A stretch of 64,000 nucleotides of DNA from a bacterium. Lineage in GTDB: Bacteria > Arandabacterota > Arandabacteria > Arandabacterales > Arandabacteraceae. Positions 19,022-32,924 of this stretch are shown in pieces. Below the pieces are notes generated by a model. The model was not told where the DNA came from and did not search any database. It saw nothing but the letters and a program-made list of their open reading frames with translations. Position numbers and translations under genes: made by a program. The stretch spans positions 1-64,000 of the forward strand of contig JAOZOU010000008.1 in assembly GCA_029933125.1 (NCBI GenBank). Reading direction: 5' to 3'. Positions within the stretch are counted from its first letter, which is position 1. Each line of letters starts with the position of its first letter.

Positions 19022-20212
19022 CTAGAAGCGATACGTAAGCGTCAGGAATCCTTTGTCAAGGGTACGTTTTTCCCTATACTCATCCTGAGGGGAAAACCTC
19101 TCAAAACAGGAGTGCACCCAGGCCACATCAACGGCAAGGCTGGACTCGACCAGAGTACCCAGTCCAAAAGTTATGTTTGTGCGATTCTTTTCCGCATCGA
19201 AGACATTAAGTGCCAGTGGAACATATGAGTAACCACCTCTGAAGCGCAGAGGTAGAATCGGAAGCGTATACTCGACACCGAATCTTAGGTCGGTGGTTGG
19301 ATCAAAGATGAAATTGCCGCTTTCATCGCGAATCCCACCCGGAAAGCCAAGTTGATGCCAATCGGTGTAGATGACATCGACAGCAATTGTGAAGTTGGGT
19401 GGCATCAAGCCGATTCCAATCGCCCCTGAAAATGGAAGGTCGATGTTATACTTCACCGGTGGATTGTACCTAATGCAGCCGGCATCGGTCCAGACCTCCT
19501 CACCTTCAACCGTTATGCGCTGCGGTGTCTTGAGGGTTAAGCCAACTGAGATAAACCTGCTCACATAAAGCATCCCCAGACTACCACCATAGCCACTGAG
19601 ATCACCTGTTTGGGAAAAGACAGCGGGTTCGTCACAACTTCCCCATGGCCAAAGCTGGTCATGATAGTCAAGATCGCCCGTGAAAAGGTGCCCCTCACCG
19701 CCAAGAAAGACATTGGGAGAAACCTGGACTGCAAACCCACCACTCCAGGCAGTAAGGACAACTTTCTTCTCCTCTATGTCATGATATCCTTGCGCTCCAT
19801 AACGGTTTAGGTATTGATCAAAGGAAGTTGCTCTTGTTACAGCACCTGCTGCCACAAGGCTTCCACGATAAGTCGGGAAGGGGTATGAGAATGAAGCATT
19901 CTGGAAGCGGGTTGTGCTAACCGAGGATGAGCTCTTTCGACCAGCCCAGGATGTCTCTATCCTCAGGTTTGCATTGGTCAAAGTTCCCAGAAGTTCAATC
20001 CTTCTGATCTTGCCCAATCCAGCGGGGTTATACCAGATAGCACTTCCATCGTCGACAATTGCTATACACGCGCCTCCCATCCCAGCCCATCTTGCACCTA
20101 TCTCCGCGCGTTGGGTAAAGGCAACATCCTTGTTGGTAGGAGGTGAGCCAGCTTGACCGAATGAAGCTAGGGATGCCACTACCGCTACTACGAGCAAAAG
20201 ACGGCTCAGCAT
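19022..20212 (-). CDS. PorV/FadL-like outer membrane beta-barrel protein
   Basis: A 396-residue exported protein. It has a signal peptide (about 1-21, ending FGQAG) and then ARWAGMGGACIAIVDDGSA with WYNPAGLGKI, the hallmark N-terminal segment of the PorV/FadL/OMPP1 barrel families. Alternating beta strands follow, and the protein ends LTLTYRF with a terminal Phe, the usual BamA recognition signal. In relatives it acts as a transporter of hydrophobic compounds or, as PorV, in type IX secretion; no other type IX genes are seen here. Its ATG shares one base with the stop of the upstream lipoprotein gene (TGATG), so the two are translationally coupled. Confidence 0.85.
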   Translation of the reverse strand: MLSRLLLVVAVVASLASFGQAGSPPTNKDVAFTQRAEIGARWAGMGGACIAIVDDGSAIWYNPAGLGKIRRIELLGTLTNANLRIETSWAGRKSSSSVSTTRFQNASFSYPFPTYRGSLVAAGAVTRATSFDQYLNRYGAQGYHDIEEKKVVLTAWSGGFAVQVSPNVFLGGEGHLFTGDLDYHDQLWPWGSCDEPAVFSQTGDLSGYGGSLGMLYVSRFISVGLTLKTPQRITVEGEEVWTDAGCIRYNPPVKYNIDLPFSGAIGIGLMPPNFTIAVDVIYTDWHQLGFPGGIRDESGNFIFDPTTDLRFGVEYTLPILPLRFRGGYSYVPLALNVFDAEKNRTNITFGLGTLVESSLAVDVAWVHSCFERFSPQDEYREKRTLDKGFLTLTYRF

Positions 20213-20800: not shown

Positions 20801-21961
20801 TTAGTGAGGAATCATGGAAAGAAGCACACCGGCAGCAACAGCTGAACCTATTACACCTGTGACATTCGGACCCATGGCGTGCATAAGCAAAGAGTTCTGA
20901 GGATTCGCTCTTTCTCCTTCCCGCTGAACAACGCGTGCAGCCATCGGTACAGCAGATACGCCTGCTGCCCCGATCAAAGGATTTATCTTGCCACCTGAAA
21001 GGCGACACATTAATCTTCCAAGGAGCACACCAGCTGCTGTTCCGATGCCAAAAGCGACAACACCGAGAACAAGGATACCCAGGGTCTTGGGCGTAAGGAA
21101 GCGCGATCCCTCAAGGGTCGCTCCCACAGAGATGCCGAGAAAGATTGTTACTATGTTGATAAGTTCATTCTGCGCCGTTTTTGAAAGACGCTCAACCACA
21201 CCCGACTCCCTCAAAAGGTTACCAAACATAAGCATTCCGATGAGGGGTGCTGCAGAAGGAACCAGCAAAGCACATAGGATAGTAACAACGAATGGAAAAA
21301 GGATGCGTTCACGCTTGGAGACCTGCCTGAGCTGTTTCATCACAATTTTGCGTTCGCCAGGAGTTGTTAGCAATCTCATTATTGGTGGCTGAATAATTGG
21401 GACAAGAGCCATATAGGAGTAAGCGGCTATCGCAACAGGTCCAAGCAGGTGGGGAGCCATCTTTGAGGTGAGATAGATAGCGGTCGGCCCATCAGCTCCA
21501 CCGATTATTGCAATCGAACTTGCTTCCTGAAGTGTAAAGGAAAGCCCGAGGCAGGGTATCTTACCGAGGGCAAGTGCCCCTAGTAACGTACCAAAGATGC
21601 CAAACTGGGCTGCCGCTCCAAGAAGGGTTGTCTTGGGATTTGCAATCAAAGGACCAAAGTCGGTAAGAGCCCCGATACCGAGGAAGATAAGAAGAGGGAA
21701 AAGGCCTGTCTTTATGCCACTATCGTAGATTACTCTCAGGATACCACCCTCGTTCATCATACCAACAACAGGCACATTCGTCAGGATGGCTCCGAAGCCA
21801 ATAGGTATAAGAAGCAAAGGTTCGTAGCGCCGTTTCACAGCAAGGTAGATGAGCAAGCATCCGATACCTATGACTATGACATTTTGATAGGTAAGATTGG
21901 CAACACCGAGGGATTTCCCGAAGCGTGCAATGAGCTCGCTCAAAGTGTATGTCGGTTCCAT
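20801..21961 (-). CDS. oadB: Sodium-translocating decarboxylase, beta subunit
   Basis: Membrane subunit that decarboxylates carboxybiotin and exports Na+. The 386-residue product has many hydrophobic helices and the two family signatures: [14 protein letters not shown], containing the Asp essential for Na+ movement, and the [20 protein letters not shown] region followed by [18 protein letters not shown]. The family covers oxaloacetate, glutaconyl-CoA and methylmalonyl-CoA pumps. The OadA-type partner next door points to oxaloacetate. It starts 9 bases after the end of oadA, as the last gene of oadGAB. Confidence 0.95.
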
Positions 21962-21970
21962 CTTATCCTC

Positions 21971-23749
21971 TCAGGATATGACGACGAGTGGGTCACCATT
22001 TTCCACTTTGTCGCCAGGCTTCACAAGGAGGTGAGCAACGCGGCCCTCGTGAGGGGAAACAACCTTGGTTTCCATCTTCATTGCTTCAAGAACAATTATC
22101 TCCTCACCTTGGCTGACTTCATCACCCTCTTGCTTGAGGATTCTCAGAACATCACCGCTCAAAGGAGCCTTGACAGTTCTTCCGTCAGTCGGGATTGCCT
22201 TCTTTGTGGGTGGTTCGTCCGCTCGGGGTTGAACAGAAAAGCCCGTAGCATCCTCAATGGAAACTTCATAGGTCTTGCCATTGACGGTTATACGGTAGGT
22301 TGCGGGTGTGGGCTCTTGAGGTGCTGGACTGGGTTTCTGGGCTTTGGCTGGCGCAGGTTTGGCAGGCTCAGGTTTCTTCATGCCATCTCTTATTTGAATA
22401 AATTCGAGCCCGACCTCAGGGAAAAGCGCATAGGTTACAACATCCTCATCGGATCTAGGTTGCATTCCCAGCTTCTCAGCAAGCTCTCGCCTGTCCTTTT
22501 CGAGCTCCGGTTCAATATAATCTGCAGGCCTTTTGGTTATAGGCTGCTGTCCTGTCTCGGCAACCACTCTTTCAACCAAATCCTTGCGAATCTCGCCCGG
22601 GGCTTTACCGTACTTGCCGAGGATGTAATTCTTTGTGTGTTCAGTTAGAACCTTGTATCGCTCTCCCTGAAGCACATTTATCACAGCTTGAGTTCCAACC
22701 ACCTGACTGCTCGGCGTCACAAGCGGTGGGTAGCCAAGGTCAGCTCTTACCTTAACCACTTCGTCAAGGACCTCATCATAGCGATCCATTGCATTCTGAC
22801 TGCGTAGCTGGCTTGCAAGATTGGACAGCATGCCCCCAGGGATCTGGGCTGAGAGAATCCGGGCATCGACACCCGGGAGCCCGCTTTCATATTCGGAGAG
22901 TTGGGCTCGAACCTGCTTGAAGTGATCAGCTATCTCAATCAGTAGATCGAGATCAAGACCCGTATCGTATGGTGTATTCCTTAGAGCCGCCACAAGACTC
23001 TCAGTTGCAGGCTGAGATGTTCCAAGGGCAAGAGGTGAGAGTGCTGTATCAATAATGGCTGCTCCTGCTTCGATACCTTTGAGATAGCTCATCTCGCTGA
23101 GCCCTGTAGTTGCATGGCAATGGAGATGGATGGGAATACTTATCTTCCTCTTGAGAGCGGAAACCAGCTCAAGGGCAACATAAGGAGTAAGAAGACCAGC
23201 CATATCCTTGATGCAGAGAGTATCAGCGCCCATCTCCTCGAGCTGCTGTGCCATCTCAACGTAGAGATCAAGGGTATGAACAGGGCTCGTTGTGTATGAT
23301 ATGCAGCCCTCAGCATGTTTGCCAGCCTTCTTGGTAGCCCTCATAGCCGTACGCAGATTGCGGACATCGTTGAGGGCATCGAAGATTCGAAAAACGTCAA
23401 TGCCTGCATTTGCAGCAAGCTCAACAAACTTCTCAACGAGATCATCAGCATAGTGGCGATAGCCAACAACGTTTTGTCCTCTGAGTAGCATCTGAAGTCG
23501 CGTGTTGGGGATAGCCTTTCGCAGCTGACGAACCCGGTCCCAGGGATCTTCTCGCAGGAAGCGTATGCAGGAGTCGAAAGTAGCGCCTCCCCACATCTCA
23601 AGGGAAAAGTAGCCCACCTTATCGAGCTTGCTCGCAACCGGAAGCATGTATTTTGTTGGCATCCTTGTTGCGAGGAGCGACTGGTGAGCATCTCTCAGGA
23701 TGGTGTCAGTTATCATAACCGTCTGCTTGTCCTGGTTCACCAAGATCAA
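21971..23749 (-). CDS. oadA: Oxaloacetate decarboxylase, alpha subunit (carboxyltransferase plus biotin domain)
   Basis: Transfers CO2 from oxaloacetate to its own biotin. The 592 residues contain a TIM-barrel carboxyltransferase domain (about 10-290) with TDTILRDAHQSL, the metal-site Lys in LCIKDMAG and the HLHCHATTG histidines. A conserved PYC/OadA domain follows, then a Pro/Ala-rich linker (about 465-490) and a biotinyl domain with the EAMKMET motif near the C-terminus. The same architecture occurs in pyruvate carboxylase subunit B, so the OadB and OadG neighbours decide the call. The start is TTG at 23749 with GAAAGGAG ahead, overlapping oadG by 4 bases. Confidence 0.94.
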   Translation of the reverse strand: MILVNQDKQTVMITDTILRDAHQSLLATRMPTKYMLPVASKLDKVGYFSLEMWGGATFDSCIRFLREDPWDRVRQLRKAIPNTRLQMLLRGQNVVGYRHYADDLVEKFVELAANAGIDVFRIFDALNDVRNLRTAMRATKKAGKHAEGCISYTTSPVHTLDLYVEMAQQLEEMGADTLCIKDMAGLLTPYVALELVSALKRKISIPIHLHCHATTGLSEMSYLKGIEAGAAIIDTALSPLALGTSQPATESLVAALRNTPYDTGLDLDLLIEIADHFKQVRAQLSEYESGLPGVDARILSAQIPGGMLSNLASQLRSQNAMDRYDEVLDEVVKVRADLGYPPLVTPSSQVVGTQAVINVLQGERYKVLTEHTKNYILGKYGKAPGEIRKDLVERVVAETGQQPITKRPADYIEPELEKDRRELAEKLGMQPRSDEDVVTYALFPEVGLEFIQIRDGMKKPEPAKPAPAKAQKPSPAPQEPTPATYRITVNGKTYEVSIEDATGFSVQPRADEPPTKKAIPTDGRTVKAPLSGDVLRILKQEGDEVSQGEEIIVLEAMKMETKVVSPHEGRVAHLLVKPGDKVENGDPLVVIS

Positions 23750-24074: not shown

Positions 24075-24761
24075 TTGAGATCGAGAGACTTGTCTTTTTC
24101 CTTTGTAATGTATCTTGTGTTCATTCTCACACTGAGCTTACACCTTGCGGGTTGCGCTCATAAAAGGCCTCACCTGCAGCGACCAGGCGACCTCAGGACA
24201 ATAGTCAGGAAACTTCATGACATAGGGGGACTCAAGGGTAATGGTTGGATCACAGCTGAGGTGCGAGGTGAGAGATTAGGCGCCCCTTTTGAGGTGGCGA
24301 TTGCCGGGGATGGCAGAATTGAACTTACCCTTCATCCGGGCACTAACAGTTTGCTCTGGCGTGAATTCAGTCTTAAAAGCACTCAAGAGAGGACTACAGT
24401 TGTCACGCCAGATAGCGAGTTCGAGGTGAAGATCGCCAATATCTCTCCCAGGGGATTGTATGCCTTTCTGCTTTCCATTGCTGGAGGAGACATGATTGTT
24501 CGGTGGCTGGACTCAGCCGGATGCGCTCTCGCAGGAGTGATTGTGTGCGATGGGTTGGAATTTGAGGTGAGAGTCGATCCCTCAACCAGCTCAGTTTCCT
24601 CATGGACAATCCATGACGAGAAGGGAGCGGAACTCAATGCCATCATTTACCGTTATTCGATGTCGCCCATACCTATGCCTCGCATAATTTCAGCGACTGT
24701 CCAGCCCTACGATGTGATATTTGGGGTGAGATATGAGAAAATAGAGCTGTATCGCCCGTGA
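24075..24761 (+). CDS. Lipoprotein, possibly of the LolB/DUF4292-like fold
   Basis: A 228-residue lipoprotein of uncertain family. The TTG at 24075 follows AAGGAGGA (24063-24070) at good spacing and gives a lipoprotein signal with LHLAGC (lipidated Cys near 26). The mature part begins LRTIVRKLHDIGGLKGNGWI and then alternates beta strands with phrases such as GLYAFLLSIAGG and FEVRVDPSTSSVSSWTI, ending in FGVRYEKIELY. This resembles the unclosed barrel of LolA/LolB and DUF4292 proteins that carry lipids or lipoproteins. That is an inference from pattern, not from a clear motif. It precedes the ECF sigma factor by 62 bases. Confidence 0.6.
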   Translation: MRSRDLSFSFVMYLVFILTLSLHLAGCAHKRPHLQRPGDLRTIVRKLHDIGGLKGNGWITAEVRGERLGAPFEVAIAGDGRIELTLHPGTNSLLWREFSLKSTQERTTVVTPDSEFEVKIANISPRGLYAFLLSIAGGDMIVRWLDSAGCALAGVIVCDGLEFEVRVDPSTSSVSSWTIHDEKGAELNAIIYRYSMSPIPMPRIISATVQPYDVIFGVRYEKIELYRP

Positions 24762-24777: not shown

Positions 24778-24806
24778 GGAACTTTGCGGGTTTATGAATG
24801 TAAAAT
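24778..24806 (+). promoter_or_regulatory. Possible ECF-type autoregulatory promoter
   Basis: GGAACTT (24778-24784) matches the -35 element used by many extracytoplasmic-function sigma factors. It is followed 15-16 bases later by GTAAAAT (24800-24806). It lies 40 bases before the sigma gene, where a self-activated promoter would be expected. TAAAAT alone would also make a decent -10 for the vegetative sigma factor, so the assignment is tentative. Confidence 0.35.
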
Positions 24807-24823
24807 AGACTGGTAGGGAAGGC

Positions 24824-25489
24824 ATGGCCCATAGCGATGGGGACCTCCCACCCGATTATCGGAATGATTCCGATGAGAGCCTCATGCTCAGGGTGGGAAA
24901 AGGAGACAGGCAAGCTTTTGATGAGATAGTGCGGCGTTATGGAGCCAAAATGATCAATCTGGCTTATCAGATAACAGGTAACAGAGAAGTGGCTGAAGAC
25001 ATTGCTCAGGAGACCTTCTTTAGAGCCTACCGGAGTGCACCAAGGTATCGTGAGATATCCAAGTTTTCAACCTGGCTTTATACGATAGCGATAAATCTTT
25101 GCAGAAATGAGCTTAGAAGACGTAAGTTTAGGATCTTTTCACTCGAAGGGATGGCTGAACGCGAGGAGAATGATAAAATAAGGGTTGATATTGTCGATGA
25201 GAAGCTTAGGCCAGATGGCGAGCTTGAGCGCAAGGAGCTCGCCAGGATGGTTAGGAGAGCGATAACCAGTCTGCCTGAAAAATTCAGAACGCCTCTTGTT
25301 TTGAGAGACATCCAGGGTTTAGCTTATGATGAGATAGGCAAAATATTGAAGTTACCTGAAGGCACAGTCAAGTCACGCATAAATAGAGCTCGCATGAGAG
25401 TCAAAGATATTCTTAAGCCCATACTTGACGAGACATGGAAGGGGGCAAAAGATAATGGATTGCAAGAAGGTGGAGACCCTTCTGAGTGA
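24824..25489 (+). CDS. ECF-family RNA polymerase sigma factor
   Basis: Alternative sigma factor of the two-domain ECF type. The 221-residue product has region 2 (about 20-95) with FDEIVRRYGAKMINLAYQIT and AEDIAQETFFRAYR plus FSTWLYTIAINLCRNELRRR, a short linker, and region 4 (about 145-205) with LPEKFRTPLVLRDIQGLAYD and GTVKSRINRARMRVKD. It lacks regions 1.1 and 3 as expected. Its end overlaps the anti-sigma gene by 35 bases, a typical translationally coupled sigma/anti-sigma pair. The likely signal is envelope stress, inferred from the exported neighbours. Confidence 0.93.
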   Translation: MAHSDGDLPPDYRNDSDESLMLRVGKGDRQAFDEIVRRYGAKMINLAYQITGNREVAEDIAQETFFRAYRSAPRYREISKFSTWLYTIAINLCRNELRRRKFRIFSLEGMAEREENDKIRVDIVDEKLRPDGELERKELARMVRRAITSLPEKFRTPLVLRDIQGLAYDEIGKILKLPEGTVKSRINRARMRVKDILKPILDETWKGAKDNGLQEGGDPSE

Positions 25490-26012
25490 TCTTGTTGACG
25501 GCACACTCGATGACCGCTCACGCAGGGAGGTGGAGGAACACCTGGCAAAATGCAAGGATTGCAGGCATGAAAGAGAGAACCTGATTAAGACCCTTGCCAC
25601 ACTTAAAGCGATTGACCGGATCGATGTTCCTAGCGATTTCGTGCAAACCCTCCGGAAGAGAATTGACGAGTTTGAAAGTGCGAAGAAGGCATTGATGTTG
25701 ACCACACTCTTGGCTTTTGTCAGACACCACAGGAAAGCCATCGTGAGCGGAGCCGCCGCCTTCGTCGTTGCCTTTGGTGTCACAGCCTATTTTGTCACCC
25801 ACATAGGCCATGTTGAGCAAGTTGCCGAGCAGGCGACTACTCCGCAACAAGCATCGCGCACTTACATAATGAATGACATTTTGCCAACCGGTGGCGATTC
25901 AGCTAATACCGTGTACATTACGGGTGATAGGGAGCCTGATCCATTCAGAGAATTGCCAACCTATGTTTTCGATGAGGTAAAACCTGTCGGGCTTATCCCG
26001 GATGATTTCTGA
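25455..26012 (+). CDS. Zinc-type (ZAS) transmembrane anti-sigma factor
   Basis: Holds the ECF sigma factor at the membrane. The N-terminal cytoplasmic domain has Cys3 and the ZAS motif His29-x3-Cys33-x2-Cys36 (EEHLAKCKDC). One membrane helix follows (about 94-115, AIVSGAAAFVVAFGVTAYFV), then a periplasmic tail of about 70 residues without a known domain, where signal sensing or regulated cleavage could occur. The ATG at 25455 lies inside the sigma gene; a reading from 25425 would put extra residues before the ZAS domain. The next gene, 9 bases on, encodes the protease-like protein. Confidence 0.88.
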   Translation: MDCKKVETLLSDLVDGTLDDRSRREVEEHLAKCKDCRHERENLIKTLATLKAIDRIDVPSDFVQTLRKRIDEFESAKKALMLTTLLAFVRHHRKAIVSGAAAFVVAFGVTAYFVTHIGHVEQVAEQATTPQQASRTYIMNDILPTGGDSANTVYITGDREPDPFRELPTYVFDEVKPVGLIPDDF

Positions 26013-26021
26013 GGTGGATCC

Positions 26022-27203
26022 ATGAAGAAGCTAGCACTTGTAACAGTCGTTGTGCTTGTTCTAAGCAGTAAGACACCCGCTGGTCAGATATCTGAAATTG
26101 AGCGTGAGATAGTAGACCTCGTGGCAGGTGTCAGGCATTCCATAGTCGCAGTAGCAGCCGTATCCCACTATCACGGTGGCCATAAGGTGCCTTTTACTTC
26201 ACGCTCAAAAGCTGTCGGCTGTGGAGTCGTGCTTGACTCCCAAGGTCACATTCTTACAACTGCGACAGTTGTGGGAAGGGCAAACGAGGTTGAGATTACC
26301 ACTTCGGATGGGGATACGCTCAGAGGTGTGGTTCTTGGTACTGACAGGGTTGCTGACATTGCTGTCATTAAGGCGGATAACGAACACCTCAAGCCAGCAA
26401 CCTTTGCTGAGGAGGACGAGATTCCACCAGGTTCCCTAGCTTTCGTCGTGGGCAATGCATTTGGGGTCCTTCCTTCAGTTGCAATGGGGGTAGTAAGCGG
26501 TCTCGAGCGGTCAGCCGGCGAGGAGATATCTTCACTCAGACTTGCTGTGCCCATAAGTCCAGGTGACATAGGTGGACCTGTGCTCAATTCAGAGGGCAAG
26601 GTGATTGGGATAGTTCTGGGCAGATTGACTCTAGAGTCAACCTACAGGGCCGCACCAACCTCGACTGGAGGTCCTTTTGCCTTTAGGAGCTTTTCGCAAC
26701 CAACCAATATGGCTGTCGCAATTCCAACGCAAAGGGTTCGTGAGATCTCGAAGCAGATAATCACCAGTGGATCTATAAAGAGGGGTTATCTTGGAGTAAG
26801 GGTGCTAGATCTGACTGATGATTTGAGAAACCAGCTGGGGGACATGGACCTCAATGGTGTTGTCGTTGTGGAAGTCGTCAAGGGTAGTCCTGCTGAATCC
26901 ATCGGGATAAGACCTGGCGATGTCATAACTGATTTTGATTCAATTCCAATTGCATCTGTTGAATCCCTTCGCAACGAAGTTCTTAAGACCCAACCTGGGG
27001 ATGTTGTGGAAATCGGTTTCCGACGAGGTGCAGACACTCGCAGCGAAAAAGTGAGGATCGGTGACCGTACTCCACGCTATCTCAATTTGGGGCGCCTGAG
27101 GGTAGGTGAGTCTGAAGCTGAGATCCTGCGAACAAGGCTTGATGACCTAAGAGCCCAGATCAGGCAGCTTGAGGAACAGCTCAAGAAGCTTAGGCGCCCA
27201 TAG
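26022..27203 (+). CDS. HtrA/DegP-like pseudoprotease with PDZ domain
   Basis: An exported 393-residue member of the HtrA family that appears unable to cut. It has a signal peptide (about 1-22), a trypsin-like domain (about 30-235), a PDZ domain (about 250-345, with GYLGVRVLDL and KGSPAESIGIRPGDVI) and a C-terminal coiled coil (about 360-393). Aligned by eye with HtrA, the catalytic His of the NHVV motif is Thr82 (ILTTATVV), the Ser of GNSGGP is Ile183 (PGDIGGP), and only Asp112 (VADIAVIK) remains. It follows the sigma and anti-sigma genes by 9 bases. I infer a binding or sensing role, for example on misfolded outer membrane protein ends or the anti-sigma tail. Confidence 0.88.
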   Translation: MKKLALVTVVVLVLSSKTPAGQISEIEREIVDLVAGVRHSIVAVAAVSHYHGGHKVPFTSRSKAVGCGVVLDSQGHILTTATVVGRANEVEITTSDGDTLRGVVLGTDRVADIAVIKADNEHLKPATFAEEDEIPPGSLAFVVGNAFGVLPSVAMGVVSGLERSAGEEISSLRLAVPISPGDIGGPVLNSEGKVIGIVLGRLTLESTYRAAPTSTGGPFAFRSFSQPTNMAVAIPTQRVREISKQIITSGSIKRGYLGVRVLDLTDDLRNQLGDMDLNGVVVVEVVKGSPAESIGIRPGDVITDFDSIPIASVESLRNEVLKTQPGDVVEIGFRRGADTRSEKVRIGDRTPRYLNLGRLRVGESEAEILRTRLDDLRAQIRQLEEQLKKLRRP

Positions 27204-27273: not shown

Positions 27274-28272
27274 ATGAAGAAGCTAATGACTCTGGCACTC
27301 ACTGTCCTGGCAATCTCATGCTCCAAGCCAATGATCGCTGCCTTTGGCTCCAACAGCGAGATCTTAATAGTGACTACACCAAGATGCTCAGAGGAGGCAA
27401 TGAAGCTTAAGAACATCCTTAGTAGGGAGATTGTCACAGTGCAATACGAACCTGCCTTTAAGGTGCGAATAGTCACCAAGGCTGATCTGAGGACCGAGCT
27501 CAACCGTAAGAACGTTCTTCTCCTGGATTATCTCAGTCCCGAGAGCAGGCTTGAGGGAAAGATAAGGGATGTAGTTGGGCAGAAATTCGATGAGCTCGAG
27601 CGTGGTGAAACCTACCGCTATGTTGTCTATGATCGGTGGGCAAGAGGGCAAGCAGTCATGGTCGTGACTGCACCAACAAAGCAGGACCTCAATAGGCTTC
27701 TCGACGAGAAAGCAGACGAAATTTTCAACTTTGTGGAAACATGTGTCCAGACTAGGCTTAATAAAGCTCTCTTCTACGGAGGTGAGCAGAAGGTTGCTAC
27801 CAAGAGGCTTCTTGATACCTATGGATGGACCTTAAGATTGCCAACAGGTTACAAAATTGATGAGACATATGCATCGGAGCGTGTTGTCAAGATAATGGAG
27901 GATAAACCTGCTCGGATGATCACTGTTTACTGGGAGGGTGGGCAGTGGTCAGATGAGTCAAAAAACTGTCTTGACCGTAAGCGCATGCTGGCGTGGCAAT
28001 ACTGGGATGAGGACGAGGTTGTGGATGAAACCCTCAGAATCGAGGAAGGTGAATTCCTGGGTCACAAGGCAATTGTTCTTAGCGGCACATGGGAAAACAA
28101 AAAATATACGATAGGAGGCATCTTTGTTACCTATTGCTTCTCCTGTCCAGAAGCCGGCCGGCACTATGTTGTCGATGCAGCAGTTTTTGCTCCCGGGCTC
28201 GACAAGCTCCCCCTTTTGCGTGAACTCAAAGCAATTCTATCCACTTTTGAGTGCAAGCCCAGGGCTGAATAG
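27274..28272 (+). CDS. DUF4837 family lipoprotein
   Basis: A 332-residue predicted lipoprotein with signal MKKLMTLALTVLAISC (lipidated Cys near 16). The body matches the DUF4837 pattern: an N-terminal region with two internal repeats (NSEILIVTTPRCSEEAMKLK and the later RGQAVMVVTAPTKQDLNRLL), then YGWTLRLPTGYKIDETYAS and a C-terminal part with FVTYCFSCPEAGRHYVVDA. The family is known mainly from Bacteroidota and relatives and has no assigned function. It has its own promoter after the pseudo-HtrA gene. An envelope role is inferred from the lipid anchor. Confidence 0.8.
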   Translation: MKKLMTLALTVLAISCSKPMIAAFGSNSEILIVTTPRCSEEAMKLKNILSREIVTVQYEPAFKVRIVTKADLRTELNRKNVLLLDYLSPESRLEGKIRDVVGQKFDELERGETYRYVVYDRWARGQAVMVVTAPTKQDLNRLLDEKADEIFNFVETCVQTRLNKALFYGGEQKVATKRLLDTYGWTLRLPTGYKIDETYASERVVKIMEDKPARMITVYWEGGQWSDESKNCLDRKRMLAWQYWDEDEVVDETLRIEEGEFLGHKAIVLSGTWENKKYTIGGIFVTYCFSCPEAGRHYVVDAAVFAPGLDKLPLLRELKAILSTFECKPRAE

Positions 28273-29401: not shown

Positions 29402-29965
29402 ATGACAACAACAAATGACCTTAGAACAGGAATGGTGCTCGAAATCGATGGGCAGCTCTACTCGGTTGTCGAATTTCTCCATGTCAAGCCAGGCAAAGGT
29501 GGTGCTTTTGTAAGGACAAAGCTTAAGAATCTTGCCACTGGTCGAGTGATTGATAAGACTTTCAACGCTGGCGAACGTGTGAAAGATGTTAGAATCGACC
29601 GCGTTGAGATGCAGTACCTCTACAATACAGGTGACGAGTATCATTTCATGAACACGGAGACTTTCGATCAAATAGCTTTGCCGGTTTCAATGGTTGAGGA
29701 GATAGCACAACTGATGAAAGACAATATTATGGTTACTGTCCAGATGAGGGATGGGCAGCCTATCGGTGTTGAACTTCCGACTTTCGTCGACCTTAAAGTT
29801 GTTGATACTGCTCCAGGTGTGAAGGGGGACACCGTATCCGGAGGCACAAAACCAGCCACACTTGAGACGGGAAAAGTGATTCAGGTTCCCCTTTTCATCG
29901 AAGTGGGTTCAATCGTAAGAGTTGATACAAGAACAGGCGAATATGTCTCGAGGGTGCAATCATGA
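29402..29965 (+). CDS. efp: Elongation factor P
   Basis: Relieves ribosome stalling at polyproline. The 187 residues form the KOW-like N-domain and two OB domains. The loop that reaches the peptidyl-transferase centre is KPGKGGAF, with Lys32 at the tip, so a lysine-type modification or an unmodified lysine is possible. No EpmA or YmfI homologue is in the window. The C-terminal signature [16 protein letters not shown] is intact. It sits 2 bases after pepP and overlaps accB by 4 bases (ATGA). Confidence 0.97.
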
Positions 29966-30408
29966 ACGTTTCTTTTCTCAAGAAGCTTGTGGAAATTGTC
30001 GAAGCTAGTGATATAGAGGAACTCGAAGTCAGGAAATGGTGGACAAAGGTTAGAATAATCAAGAAACGTTCCACCAATCCGACTTCCAACCAAACTCAGG
30101 CAGGTAGCAAGGTGAACGAGCACATAGTAGAGGTTGCACCTAAGGAACCTCAAGTACAAGAGGAGAGCTATCTTGAGATCAAGTCGCCAATGGTCGGCAC
30201 ATTTTACAGAGCACCAAGTCCTGGAGCCAGGCCCTATGTTGAGGTTGGTGATCGCGTTGAACCTGGTCAGGTGGTATGCATAATTGAAGCCATGAAACTC
30301 ATGAATGAGATTGAGTCGGAGGTCTCAGGAACAATCGCCAAGGTGCTCGTTGAGAACGCCCAACCTGTCGAGTACGGGCAGACGCTATTTCTCGTCAAGC
30401 CATCCTAG
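29962..30408 (+). CDS. accB: Biotin carboxyl carrier protein of acetyl-CoA carboxylase
   Basis: Carries biotin for fatty acid synthesis. The 148-residue product has an N-terminal helical region, a linker, and the biotinyl domain starting [19 protein letters not shown] with the [10 protein letters not shown] motif (biotinylated Lys near 112). It is coupled to efp by an ATGA overlap. Its usual partner accC lies downstream, but pilT is inserted between the two genes. Confidence 0.96.
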
Positions 30409-30417
30409 GAGAGTGTA

Positions 30418-31524
30418 ATGGATATCAAAGCGCTTCTTGAAGAGATAGTAAGAAAGAAGGCTTCTGATCTTCATATCAAGGTGGGAACATCTCCAACGAT
30501 AAGAGTCGATGGGGAACTCCAGCCCCTCGATGTTGAACCTCCTACACTTGATGAGGTTGAAGAGGCTTGTGAGCAGGTCTTAACACCCAAGCAGAAAAAA
30601 GAGTTTGATGAGAACAATGAGGTGGACTTTGCTTTTGGTGTTCCTGGGCTTGCGAGGTTCAGGGCAAACTTCTACCGTCAGCGGGGATCAACCGCGATGG
30701 TGTTCAGGCTAATACCTTTTGATCCTCCCCGCATAGAGGAGCTTAACCTTCCGCCGATTGTTAAGGAACTTGCCCTCAAGCCTAGAGGACTTGTTCTCGT
30801 AACAGGTACAGTTGGATCAGGCAAGACGACAACTCTTGCTGCGATGGTGCGCGAGATAAATGACAATCAGCGGCGAAACATAATCACAATAGAAGATCCC
30901 ATTGAATTCCTGCATCGCGATAACATGAGCTTGATAAGCCAGAGAGAGGTGGGCAGTGACACGGGATCCTTTGGCCAGGCCCTGCGCTACATTCTCAGGC
31001 AGGATCCAGATGTGATATTGATCGGTGAGATAAGAGATCGTGAGACGATGTCGATAGCTTTGACTGCTGCCAATACGGGCCACCTTGTTTTCAGTACCCT
31101 ACATACTGTCGATGCTGCCCAGGCAGTCAACCGTATCATATCCTTCTTTCCGCCTCATCAGCATCAGGAAGTCAGGTTCCTACTGGCATCCTGCCTTCAG
31201 GCAATTATATCGCTGAGGCTTGTACCACGTGCTGATACCGATGGTAGAGTTCCGGCTGTTGAGGTCCTTGTTGCAACTGAAACCGTAAAAGAATACCTTA
31301 TCGATCCTAAGCGAACAGCAATGATCAAGAATCTTATCGAGGAGAGTGTCACAGAATATGGAATGCAATCATTTGATCAATCCCTCCTTGCATGGTACAA
31401 TAAAGGAGTCATTACCCTTGAGGATGCGCTGAGATTCGCCTCGAGTCCAACTGCGCTAACAATCAAGGCGAAAGGAATCGAAACGGGTTCAGATGTTACC
31501 TGGGCGCCGTTTGCTTCCGAGTAA
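30418..31524 (+). CDS. pilT: Type IV pilus retraction ATPase PilT
   Basis: Hexameric ATPase that depolymerises type IV pili for twitching motility. The 368-residue product shows the N-terminal PAS-like domain ([20 protein letters not shown]), Walker [11 protein letters not shown] near residue 129, the Asp and His boxes ([30 protein letters not shown]) and the AIRNLIRE-like motif near the end (here MIKNLIEES). It lies between accB and accC with gaps of 9 and 11 bases. No other pilus gene occurs in the window. Confidence 0.96.
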
Positions 31525-31535
31525 ACGGACTATCA

Positions 31536-32924
31536 ATGTTTAACAAGGTTCTCATCGCTAACAGAGGAGAGATAGCCCTCAGGGTCATCAGGGCTTGCAA
31601 GGAGCTGGGTATAGCCACAGTTGCAGTATATTCCGAAGCTGACAGGGACTGCCTCCACGTTCGCTTTGCCGATGAAATCGTATGTATTGGCCCAGCCAGA
31701 GCGGCAGAAAGCTATCTCAATGTCCCGAGGATAATAAGCGCCGCTGAAGTCACGGCAGCTGAGGCTATCCATCCTGGCTATGGCTTCCTGGCGGAGAATG
31801 CCGATTTTGCTGAGGCATGTGAGTCATGCGGCATAAAGTTCATCGGTCCAAGTGCTAGGGTTATTGCAAAGATGGGGGATAAAGCGTCGGCCAGGCAGGC
31901 GATGCTCGATGCAGGTGTCCCAGTTGTGCCGGGCAGCGTTGGCTCAGTGGAGCGAATCGAAGATGCCATCTCAGTAGCTGCGGAGATAGGCTATCCTGTA
32001 ATGATAAAGGCATCGGGCGGTGGAGGGGGCAAGGGTATGCGTCTGGCAAGGGATGAGGCAGAACTTGAGAAAGCCTTTGTTGCTGCGGCTGGTGAGGCTG
32101 AAGCCAGCTTTGGCAACCGAGCTGTCTATATTGAGAAGCTGATCGATCGTCCAAGGCACATAGAGATCCAGGTGCTCTGTGATTCTAAGGGAAATGGCAT
32201 ATTCCTCGGAGAGCGTGACTGTTCAATTCAACGCAAGCATCAGAAGCTGATTGAAGAAGCACCTTCACCTGCGGTTGATGAAGATTTGAGACTTAAACTG
32301 GGCGCAGCAGCTGTTCGTGGTTGTCTTGCCTTGGGATACGAGAATGCTGGCACGGTTGAATTTCTTATGGACAGCGATGGCAGGTTCTATTTTATTGAAA
32401 TGAATACACGCATACAGGTAGAGCATCCCGTGACCGAGATGGTGACAGGCATCGACATTGTGAAGGAGCAAATAAAGATTGCCGCTGGCGAATCTCTCGA
32501 GATCAGGCAGGAGGATGTGGAGTTGCGAGGCCATGCTATAGAGTGCAGGATAAATGCTGAGGATCCTGATCGTGACTTCGCACCATGTCCGGGTAAGATT
32601 GAGGCACTTCATATGCCAGGGGGACCGGGTATTAGAGTGGACACTCACATTTATGCCCAGTATGAGATTCCGCCATATTACGATTCGCTTCTCGCCAAGC
32701 TGGTTGCTCATGGTCCGGATCGTCACGTCGCCATAGCTAGAATCCTCAGGGCTCTCGATGAATTCGTGGTTGAGGGTATAAAGACGACTATAGGTTTTCA
32801 CCGCAGGGCTATAGATAGTCCAGCTTTCCGCTCGGGTGATTTCGATACATCCTTCGTCAAATGGGTGCTCGAGGGCGGTGCAAGAGAGGAAGCACCAGTA
32901 CATGGGGTTGATACTAAGCCATGA
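31536..32924 (+). CDS. accC: Biotin carboxylase of acetyl-CoA carboxylase
   Basis: ATP-dependent carboxylation of biotin on AccB. The 462-residue product has the preATP-grasp domain ([20 protein letters not shown]), the ATP-grasp domain with [12 protein letters not shown] near residue 158 and [17 protein letters not shown], and the C-terminal biotin carboxylase domain ([13 protein letters not shown]). The length suits AccC; related PycA enzymes are slightly longer. AccB in the same operon supports the acetyl-CoA carboxylase call, although OadA/PycB at 22-24 kb could also use such a subunit. It overlaps comB by 4 bases. Confidence 0.94.

Follow-up and report, generated by a model that had tools for sequence, protein, structure and literature searches.

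A conserved operon of an ECF sigma factor, a zinc anti-sigma factor and an HtrA-fold pseudoprotease as a candidate envelope-stress circuit

The operon of Pseudomonas aeruginosa that centres on the sigma factor AlgU has the order algU-mucA-mucB-mucC-mucD, in which mucD is of the HtrA type. This envelope ECF system includes an anti-sigma factor, the shield protein MucB and a PDZ domain, that of AlgW, which reads C-terminal protein ends (PMC8545111, PMC7400510), and the RpoE-RseA-RseB system of E. coli, operating with DegS and RseP, comprises a membrane anti-sigma factor, a shield, PDZ sensing of outer-membrane protein (OMP) C-termini and RseP (PMC8103513). RseB and MucB are the precedent for a periplasmic shield (PMC7400510, PMC8103513), the C-terminal ends bound by the PDZ domains are of the form YxF for DegS and WVF for AlgW (PMC8545111), and the carboxylate-binding loop motif of HtrA PDZ domains has been described (PMC11642142). 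In Mycobacterium tuberculosis, genes for an ECF sigma factor, a zinc-type anti-sigma factor and an HtrA protein adjoin one another (sigE with rseA-htrA-tatB; PMC10027907), a grouping for which the reason is hard to see, according to that review. Finally, an HtrA-family pseudoprotease with a non-catalytic role is known in MamO of magnetotactic bacteria (PMC4794232). The locus that we describe here resembles each of the four systems in these respective features, with a shield and PDZ sensing being proposed for it.

The window (the whole stretch of DNA analysed, 64,000 nucleotides) comes from contig C141 of a 3.2 Mb draft genome that is 97% complete. An earlier note on its sequence had proposed a three-gene cluster at 24778-27203, and open reading frames and Pfam matches (Sigma70 r2/r4, zf-HC2, and Trypsin_2 plus PDZ) confirm this, the first base of the cluster, 24778, being also the first base of a promoter-like GGAACTT. 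The features of the locus are as follows.

24108-24761, plus strand: LolB-like lipoprotein, 5' of the promoter (AF2 model and structure comparison)
24778-24804, plus strand: ECF promoter-like element GGAACTT-N15-GTAAA, 20-46 nt 5' of the sigma gene
24824-25489, plus strand: ECF sigma factor, RpoE/SigW-like, 221 aa (Pfam Sigma70_r2 2e-20, r4_2 9e-14)
25455-26012, plus strand: membrane ZAS anti-sigma factor, 185 aa (zf-HC2 8e-13)
25962-26009, plus strand: conserved periplasmic tail of the anti-sigma factor, Y170-V-F-D-E-V ... D-D-F185-COOH (proposed pseudo-HtrA ligand)
26022-27203, plus strand: exported HtrA-fold pseudoprotease, 393 aa (Trypsin_2 3e-25, PDZ_2 7e-16)
26265-26267, plus strand: Thr82 (ACA), at the catalytic His place (alignment to solved HtrA proteins)
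26355-26357, plus strand: Asp112 (GAC), catalytic Asp (alignment to solved HtrA proteins)
26568-26570, plus strand: Ile183 (ATA), at the catalytic Ser place (alignment to solved HtrA proteins)
26781-26798, plus strand: PDZ carboxylate-binding loop R254-G-Y-L-G-V259, intact (residue counts in 54 trio HtrA proteins)
27274-28272, plus strand: DUF4837 putative lipoprotein, downstream neighbour (PF16125 2.9e-29)

The start of the anti-sigma gene overlaps the end of the sigma gene by 35 nt, and 9 nt separate the end of the anti-sigma gene from the start of the HtrA-like gene, a spacing like that of a translationally coupled operon. The sigma factor is a short protein with regions 2 and 4, as is typical of ECF members of the sigma-70 family; it scores above the cut-off of the superfamily model TIGR02937, and its NCBIfam SigW and RpoE matches lie far under the equivalog cut-offs. 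The anti-sigma factor carries the zinc motif H29-x3-C33-x2-C36 plus C3, of which H/C/C are invariant in 8 relatives, and a single transmembrane segment at about 95-114 (hydrophobic segment score 2.07) followed by a periplasmic tail. An HxxxCxxC motif, an adjoining ECF sigma gene and a membrane segment are thus all present, as in other ZAS (zf-HC2) proteins.

The third protein, hereafter the pseudo-HtrA, consists of a signal peptide, a protease-like domain, one PDZ domain and a predicted C-terminal helix at 365-391. A chymotrypsin-like domain followed by a PDZ domain is the architecture of HtrA/DegP proteins (peptidase family S1C), but the His-Asp-Ser triad of that family is represented by T82/D112/I183. 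When solved HtrA proteins are aligned with it, Thr82 (TTATV) stands where they have the His of TNNHV and Ile183 (PGDIGG) where they have the Ser of PGNSGG, and their Asp coincides with Asp112; this bears out the assignment of both lost residues in the earlier note. All NCBIfam models for DegP, DegQ, DegS and HtrA score the protein far under their cut-offs (best 192.8 bits vs 416.2). The AF2 model is of low confidence (pLDDT 60), and its match to the DegS protease domain is nonetheless clear (Z 25.4, rmsd 2.6 over 189); together with the PDZ hit, this upholds the view that fold and PDZ domain have been kept, and the C-terminal coiled coil of the earlier note corresponds to the predicted helix.

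The catalytic His is missing wherever we find the three genes together (hereafter the trio). Within the phylum of the window, the trio occurs in 8/8 genomes examined, and the order sigma - anti-sigma - HtrA - DUF4837 is the same in 7/7 relatives, which range from the same genus to the same class. The place of the catalytic His is taken by Thr or Ser in all 8 members and the Asp is kept. At the Ser place, members of the window's own family have Ile or Val and a relative at order level has Thr; G007, related at class level and the most distant of the seven compared, still has Ser. Sister genomes with an intact triad would have pointed to an error of sequencing; the His is lost in all 7 relatives, although G007 has kept the Ser, and both sequencing error and a pseudogene are ruled out by intact open reading frames bearing the same losses in 8/8 genomes of the phylum and in others.

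A contig profile search with 5 orthologues gave matches to named records only inside the phylum. An 8-protein profile run over 386 genomes added 10 genomes with full-length matches in the sigma - ZAS - HtrA arrangement, and a 17-row profile separates 18 trio proteins (E 1e-116 or better) from the next HtrA proteins (E 1e-91), a gap that arises partly by construction, since each of these 18 either belongs to the profile or is closely similar to it. Searching the phyla of G201 and G323 yielded 36 further loci, none of them used in the profile, with a sigma homologue of 42-49% identity upstream in 35 of the 36 and the remaining locus beginning at a contig edge. The trio, with its three genes in one orientation, is therefore present in at least five phyla, since those of the window, G201, G323 and G065 are distinct and phylum lists place G109, G143, G226 and G327 outside all four; because only His-less members went into the profile, it could have overlooked trios whose HtrA is active.

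Across 54 trio HtrA proteins the catalytic His is absent without exception, its place being occupied by Phe (22), Ser (18), Gly (6), Ala (3), Thr (2), Asp (2) or Asn (1). The Asp place holds Asp in 39, Asn in 14 and Gly in 1, and the Ser place holds Ser in 42, Ile in 5, Thr in 3 and Val, Gly, Ala and Asn in one each. Substitution of the triad by another His or Ser is likewise ruled out, as no alternative His or nucleophile is conserved among the 54; by their aligned residues, none of these proteins could use a His-Asp-Ser triad. The PDZ loop is strongly retained, with G255 in 53/54, L257 in 50/54, G258 in 54/54 and V259 in 49/54. In a tree built without the three catalytic columns, one branch (SH-aLRT 100%) splits trio from active HtrA proteins, a topology compatible with a single, old loss of catalysis, which is suggestive only because branches are long and the root is not known.

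What the PDZ domain might hold is indicated by the anti-sigma factors, whose periplasmic part is strongly variable but whose end is conserved. The last residue in 52 trio anti-sigma factors is Phe (21), Leu (27), Tyr (2), Trp (1) or Pro (1), that is, F/L/Y/W in 51/52, whereas only 3/22 other ZAS proteins of the same genomes, taken as controls, end in F/Y/W/L. With one vote per lineage, a hydrophobic end is found in 7/8 trio lineages vs 3/22 controls (Fisher p 4e-4, the lineages being families that are treated as independent); the exception is the G065 lineage, in which the anti-sigma factor ends in ...TFSP. A [YF][VI]L..V-like segment precedes the tail end in most lineages, as TYVFDEV in the window, FYLLPAV in G109, RYVLPVI in G143, EFILDPV in G201, RYVLDQV in G226 and HYILKQV in G046. 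Among 28 anti-sigma sequences from the phylum of G323, the last 20 columns are 73% identical vs 40% in the preceding 60 (the linker). In this phylum (L156-L183) the end is a nearly invariant GGL and most HtrA proteins have Phe at the catalytic His place, a distinct sub-type whose PDZ pocket invites comparison with that of the Phe-ended type. By our own reading of its sequence, the product of 19022-20212 on the minus strand, which has no Pfam match, is probably an outer-membrane beta-barrel; it ends in YRF, an end of the sort recognised by HtrA PDZ domains, and so the anti-sigma end in the window looks like OMP ends.

Two proteases with intact triads are encoded in the genome, one DegS-like with a membrane anchor and a single PDZ domain and one DegP-like with two PDZ domains, and so is an RseP whose gene adjoins dxr and a BamA-like gene; the DegS-like site-1 and RseP site-2 proteases lie on contigs C120 and C161. 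Since these enzymes are encoded elsewhere in the genome, the cutting machinery is separate from the dead HtrA. The DegS-like protein has a different PDZ loop, EIWIGL. As an observation in its own right, the two-PDZ DegP-like gene stands directly upstream of an RpoD/RpoS-like, primary-type sigma gene on the same strand (C42; L042 4572-6062 and 3654-4517), the second pairing of an HtrA gene with a sigma gene in this genome.

The sequence before the sigma gene suggests that the circuit regulates itself. The pattern GGAAC-N17/18-GT occurs within -70 to +10 of the sigma start in 12/16 trio operons vs a mean of 0.16 in shuffles, with the consensus GGAACY-N16-GTA, and also in 11/33 held-out loci, including all 8 of the G201 phylum. 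We propose that the element at 24778-24804 is an autoregulatory promoter. Genome-wide, the pattern is not enriched in the window's own genome (3 matches vs 9 for a reversed control), and a wider regulon based upon it was dropped; only autoregulation is supported because the genome-wide pattern does not rise above its control.

The earlier note had taken the lipoproteins that flank the cluster to fit an envelope role, and the upstream one resembles LolB in its predicted fold. The AF2 model of the 24108-24761 product (pLDDT 84.7) has LolB as its best match (1iwm, Z 15.5, rmsd 3.1 over 162), in a protein with almost no Pfam sequence signal and for which a family sequence search against the PDB returned nothing. 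In most genomes of the phylum this gene immediately precedes the sigma promoter; it was not found in G004. The possibility that it encodes an RseB was rejected because the predicted fold fits LolB far better (Z 15.5 vs 7.2 for RseB). DUF4837 is otherwise known as a Bacteroidota lipoprotein family; it lies immediately 3' of the trio not only here but also in another lineage, of a different phylum (G143 and G280; L108 6594-7604; L109 2477-3592). In the window's family the circuit is further flanked by biotin/Na+ pump and carboxylase genes (20801-23749, minus strand, with oadB and a pycB-like gene; 29402-32924, plus strand, with efp, a biotin carrier, a PilT-like gene and accC), and biotin carrier and PilT-like genes are near the trio also in G201 and G332.

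The earlier idea of an envelope-stress circuit with a dead protease is therefore supported, and the protease belongs to a conserved family. We give about an even chance to the reading that this operon forms an envelope-stress circuit under its own control, with the HtrA-fold pseudoprotease serving, without any cutting, both as a sensor and as a shield for the anti-sigma factor. The pseudo-HtrA probably senses by holding rather than cutting, because the anti-sigma tail is of the kind that its docking domain normally grips; the suggestion that it may hold the anti-sigma factor is strengthened by the conserved hydrophobic C-terminus, and from this we infer binding, shielding and competition. Its PDZ domain would bind the anti-sigma C-terminus, and the [YF][VI]L..V strand would perhaps lie in the dead substrate groove, such that the bound tail would be hidden from a real site-1 protease. 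Misfolded OMP C-terminal ends, or other clients, would then occupy the PDZ domain and set the tail free, upon which a DegS-like enzyme and RseP would cut the anti-sigma factor and release the sigma factor, which in turn would raise the production of all three trio proteins. A single protein would thereby combine two roles, sensing through a PDZ domain as in DegS and shielding as in RseB and MucB. Porin ends may not be the competitors in every lineage, because the Leu ends found in the G323 phylum are unlike OMP ends. More tentatively, it is possible that the trio represents a widespread class in which a His-less HtrA grips its own anti-sigma factor at two sites, with the PDZ domain taking the C-terminal hydrophobic residue and the groove of the dead active site taking the [YF][VI]L..V strand, and lets go when the ends of damaged envelope proteins compete for the PDZ domain.

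Several alternative hypotheses may explain the pseudo-HtrA. It could be a non-cutting periplasmic chaperone, a mere target of the sigma factor that makes no contact with the anti-sigma factor, given that HtrA proteins act also as chaperones (PMC12826053), that effector genes are common in sigma operons and that LolB-like and DUF4837 neighbours are of the envelope type. The conserved anti-sigma tail disfavours this reading, which explains neither that hydrophobic C-terminus nor why this HtrA accompanies the sigma and anti-sigma genes in all lineages observed, and we consider it rather unlikely. It is doubtful, too, that the pseudo-HtrA is a positive element, binding the tail and delivering it to, or activating, a genuine DegS-like protease, for example in hypothetical mixed oligomers. 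The tail evidence fits such an adaptor too, and MamO promotes proteolysis by active MamE non-catalytically (PMC4794232), yet an inhibitor is the better match for a protein made constitutively together with the anti-sigma factor, and the PDZ loop of the genome's own DegS-like protein differs from that of the pseudo-HtrA. It also counts against the sensor-and-shield reading that the tail may have its reader in the PDZ domain of the active DegS-like protease. Very improbable is a protease that still cuts through other residues or through the retained Ser (42/54) and Asp (39/54) in a different mechanism, since His is found in 0/54, no His or nucleophile is conserved elsewhere and the family of the window has lost the Ser as well, to Ile or Val.

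If the sensor-and-shield reading is true, the site-1 protease fold of envelope-stress signalling became a non-cutting receptor that has been kept across several phyla, which would suggest an answer to why HtrA genes adjoin sigma/anti-sigma pairs; thanks to the conserved anti-sigma tail, a single purified protein and a short peptide would suffice for a direct test.

The earlier statement that no characterised system has this composition requires qualification, given its cousins in M. tuberculosis and P. aeruginosa, and holds for the loss of catalysis. In the open-licence literature we found no description of an ECF / ZAS / His-less HtrA family, or of an HtrA pseudoprotease with an ECF sigma factor. 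In M. tuberculosis, HtrA is an active serine protease, RseA is controlled by PknB phosphorylation and ClpC1P2 together with redox, and sigE and rseA are not cotranscribed (PMC10027907). The MucB shield of P. aeruginosa has a LolA/LolB-like fold, whereas the pseudo-HtrA has an HtrA fold, and both MucD and AlgW are active proteases. In E. coli, sensor and shield are two proteins, DegS and RseB, whereas here one HtrA-fold protein would hold both roles, and the anti-sigma factor of the trio is of the zinc type. MamO binds metal, promotes MamE, keeps His and Asp, has a transporter domain and has no link to a sigma factor (PMC4794232). Against cousins with an active HtrA, which were already known, what appears to be new in the aligned sequences is the loss of catalysis in all trio HtrA proteins and their wide distribution.
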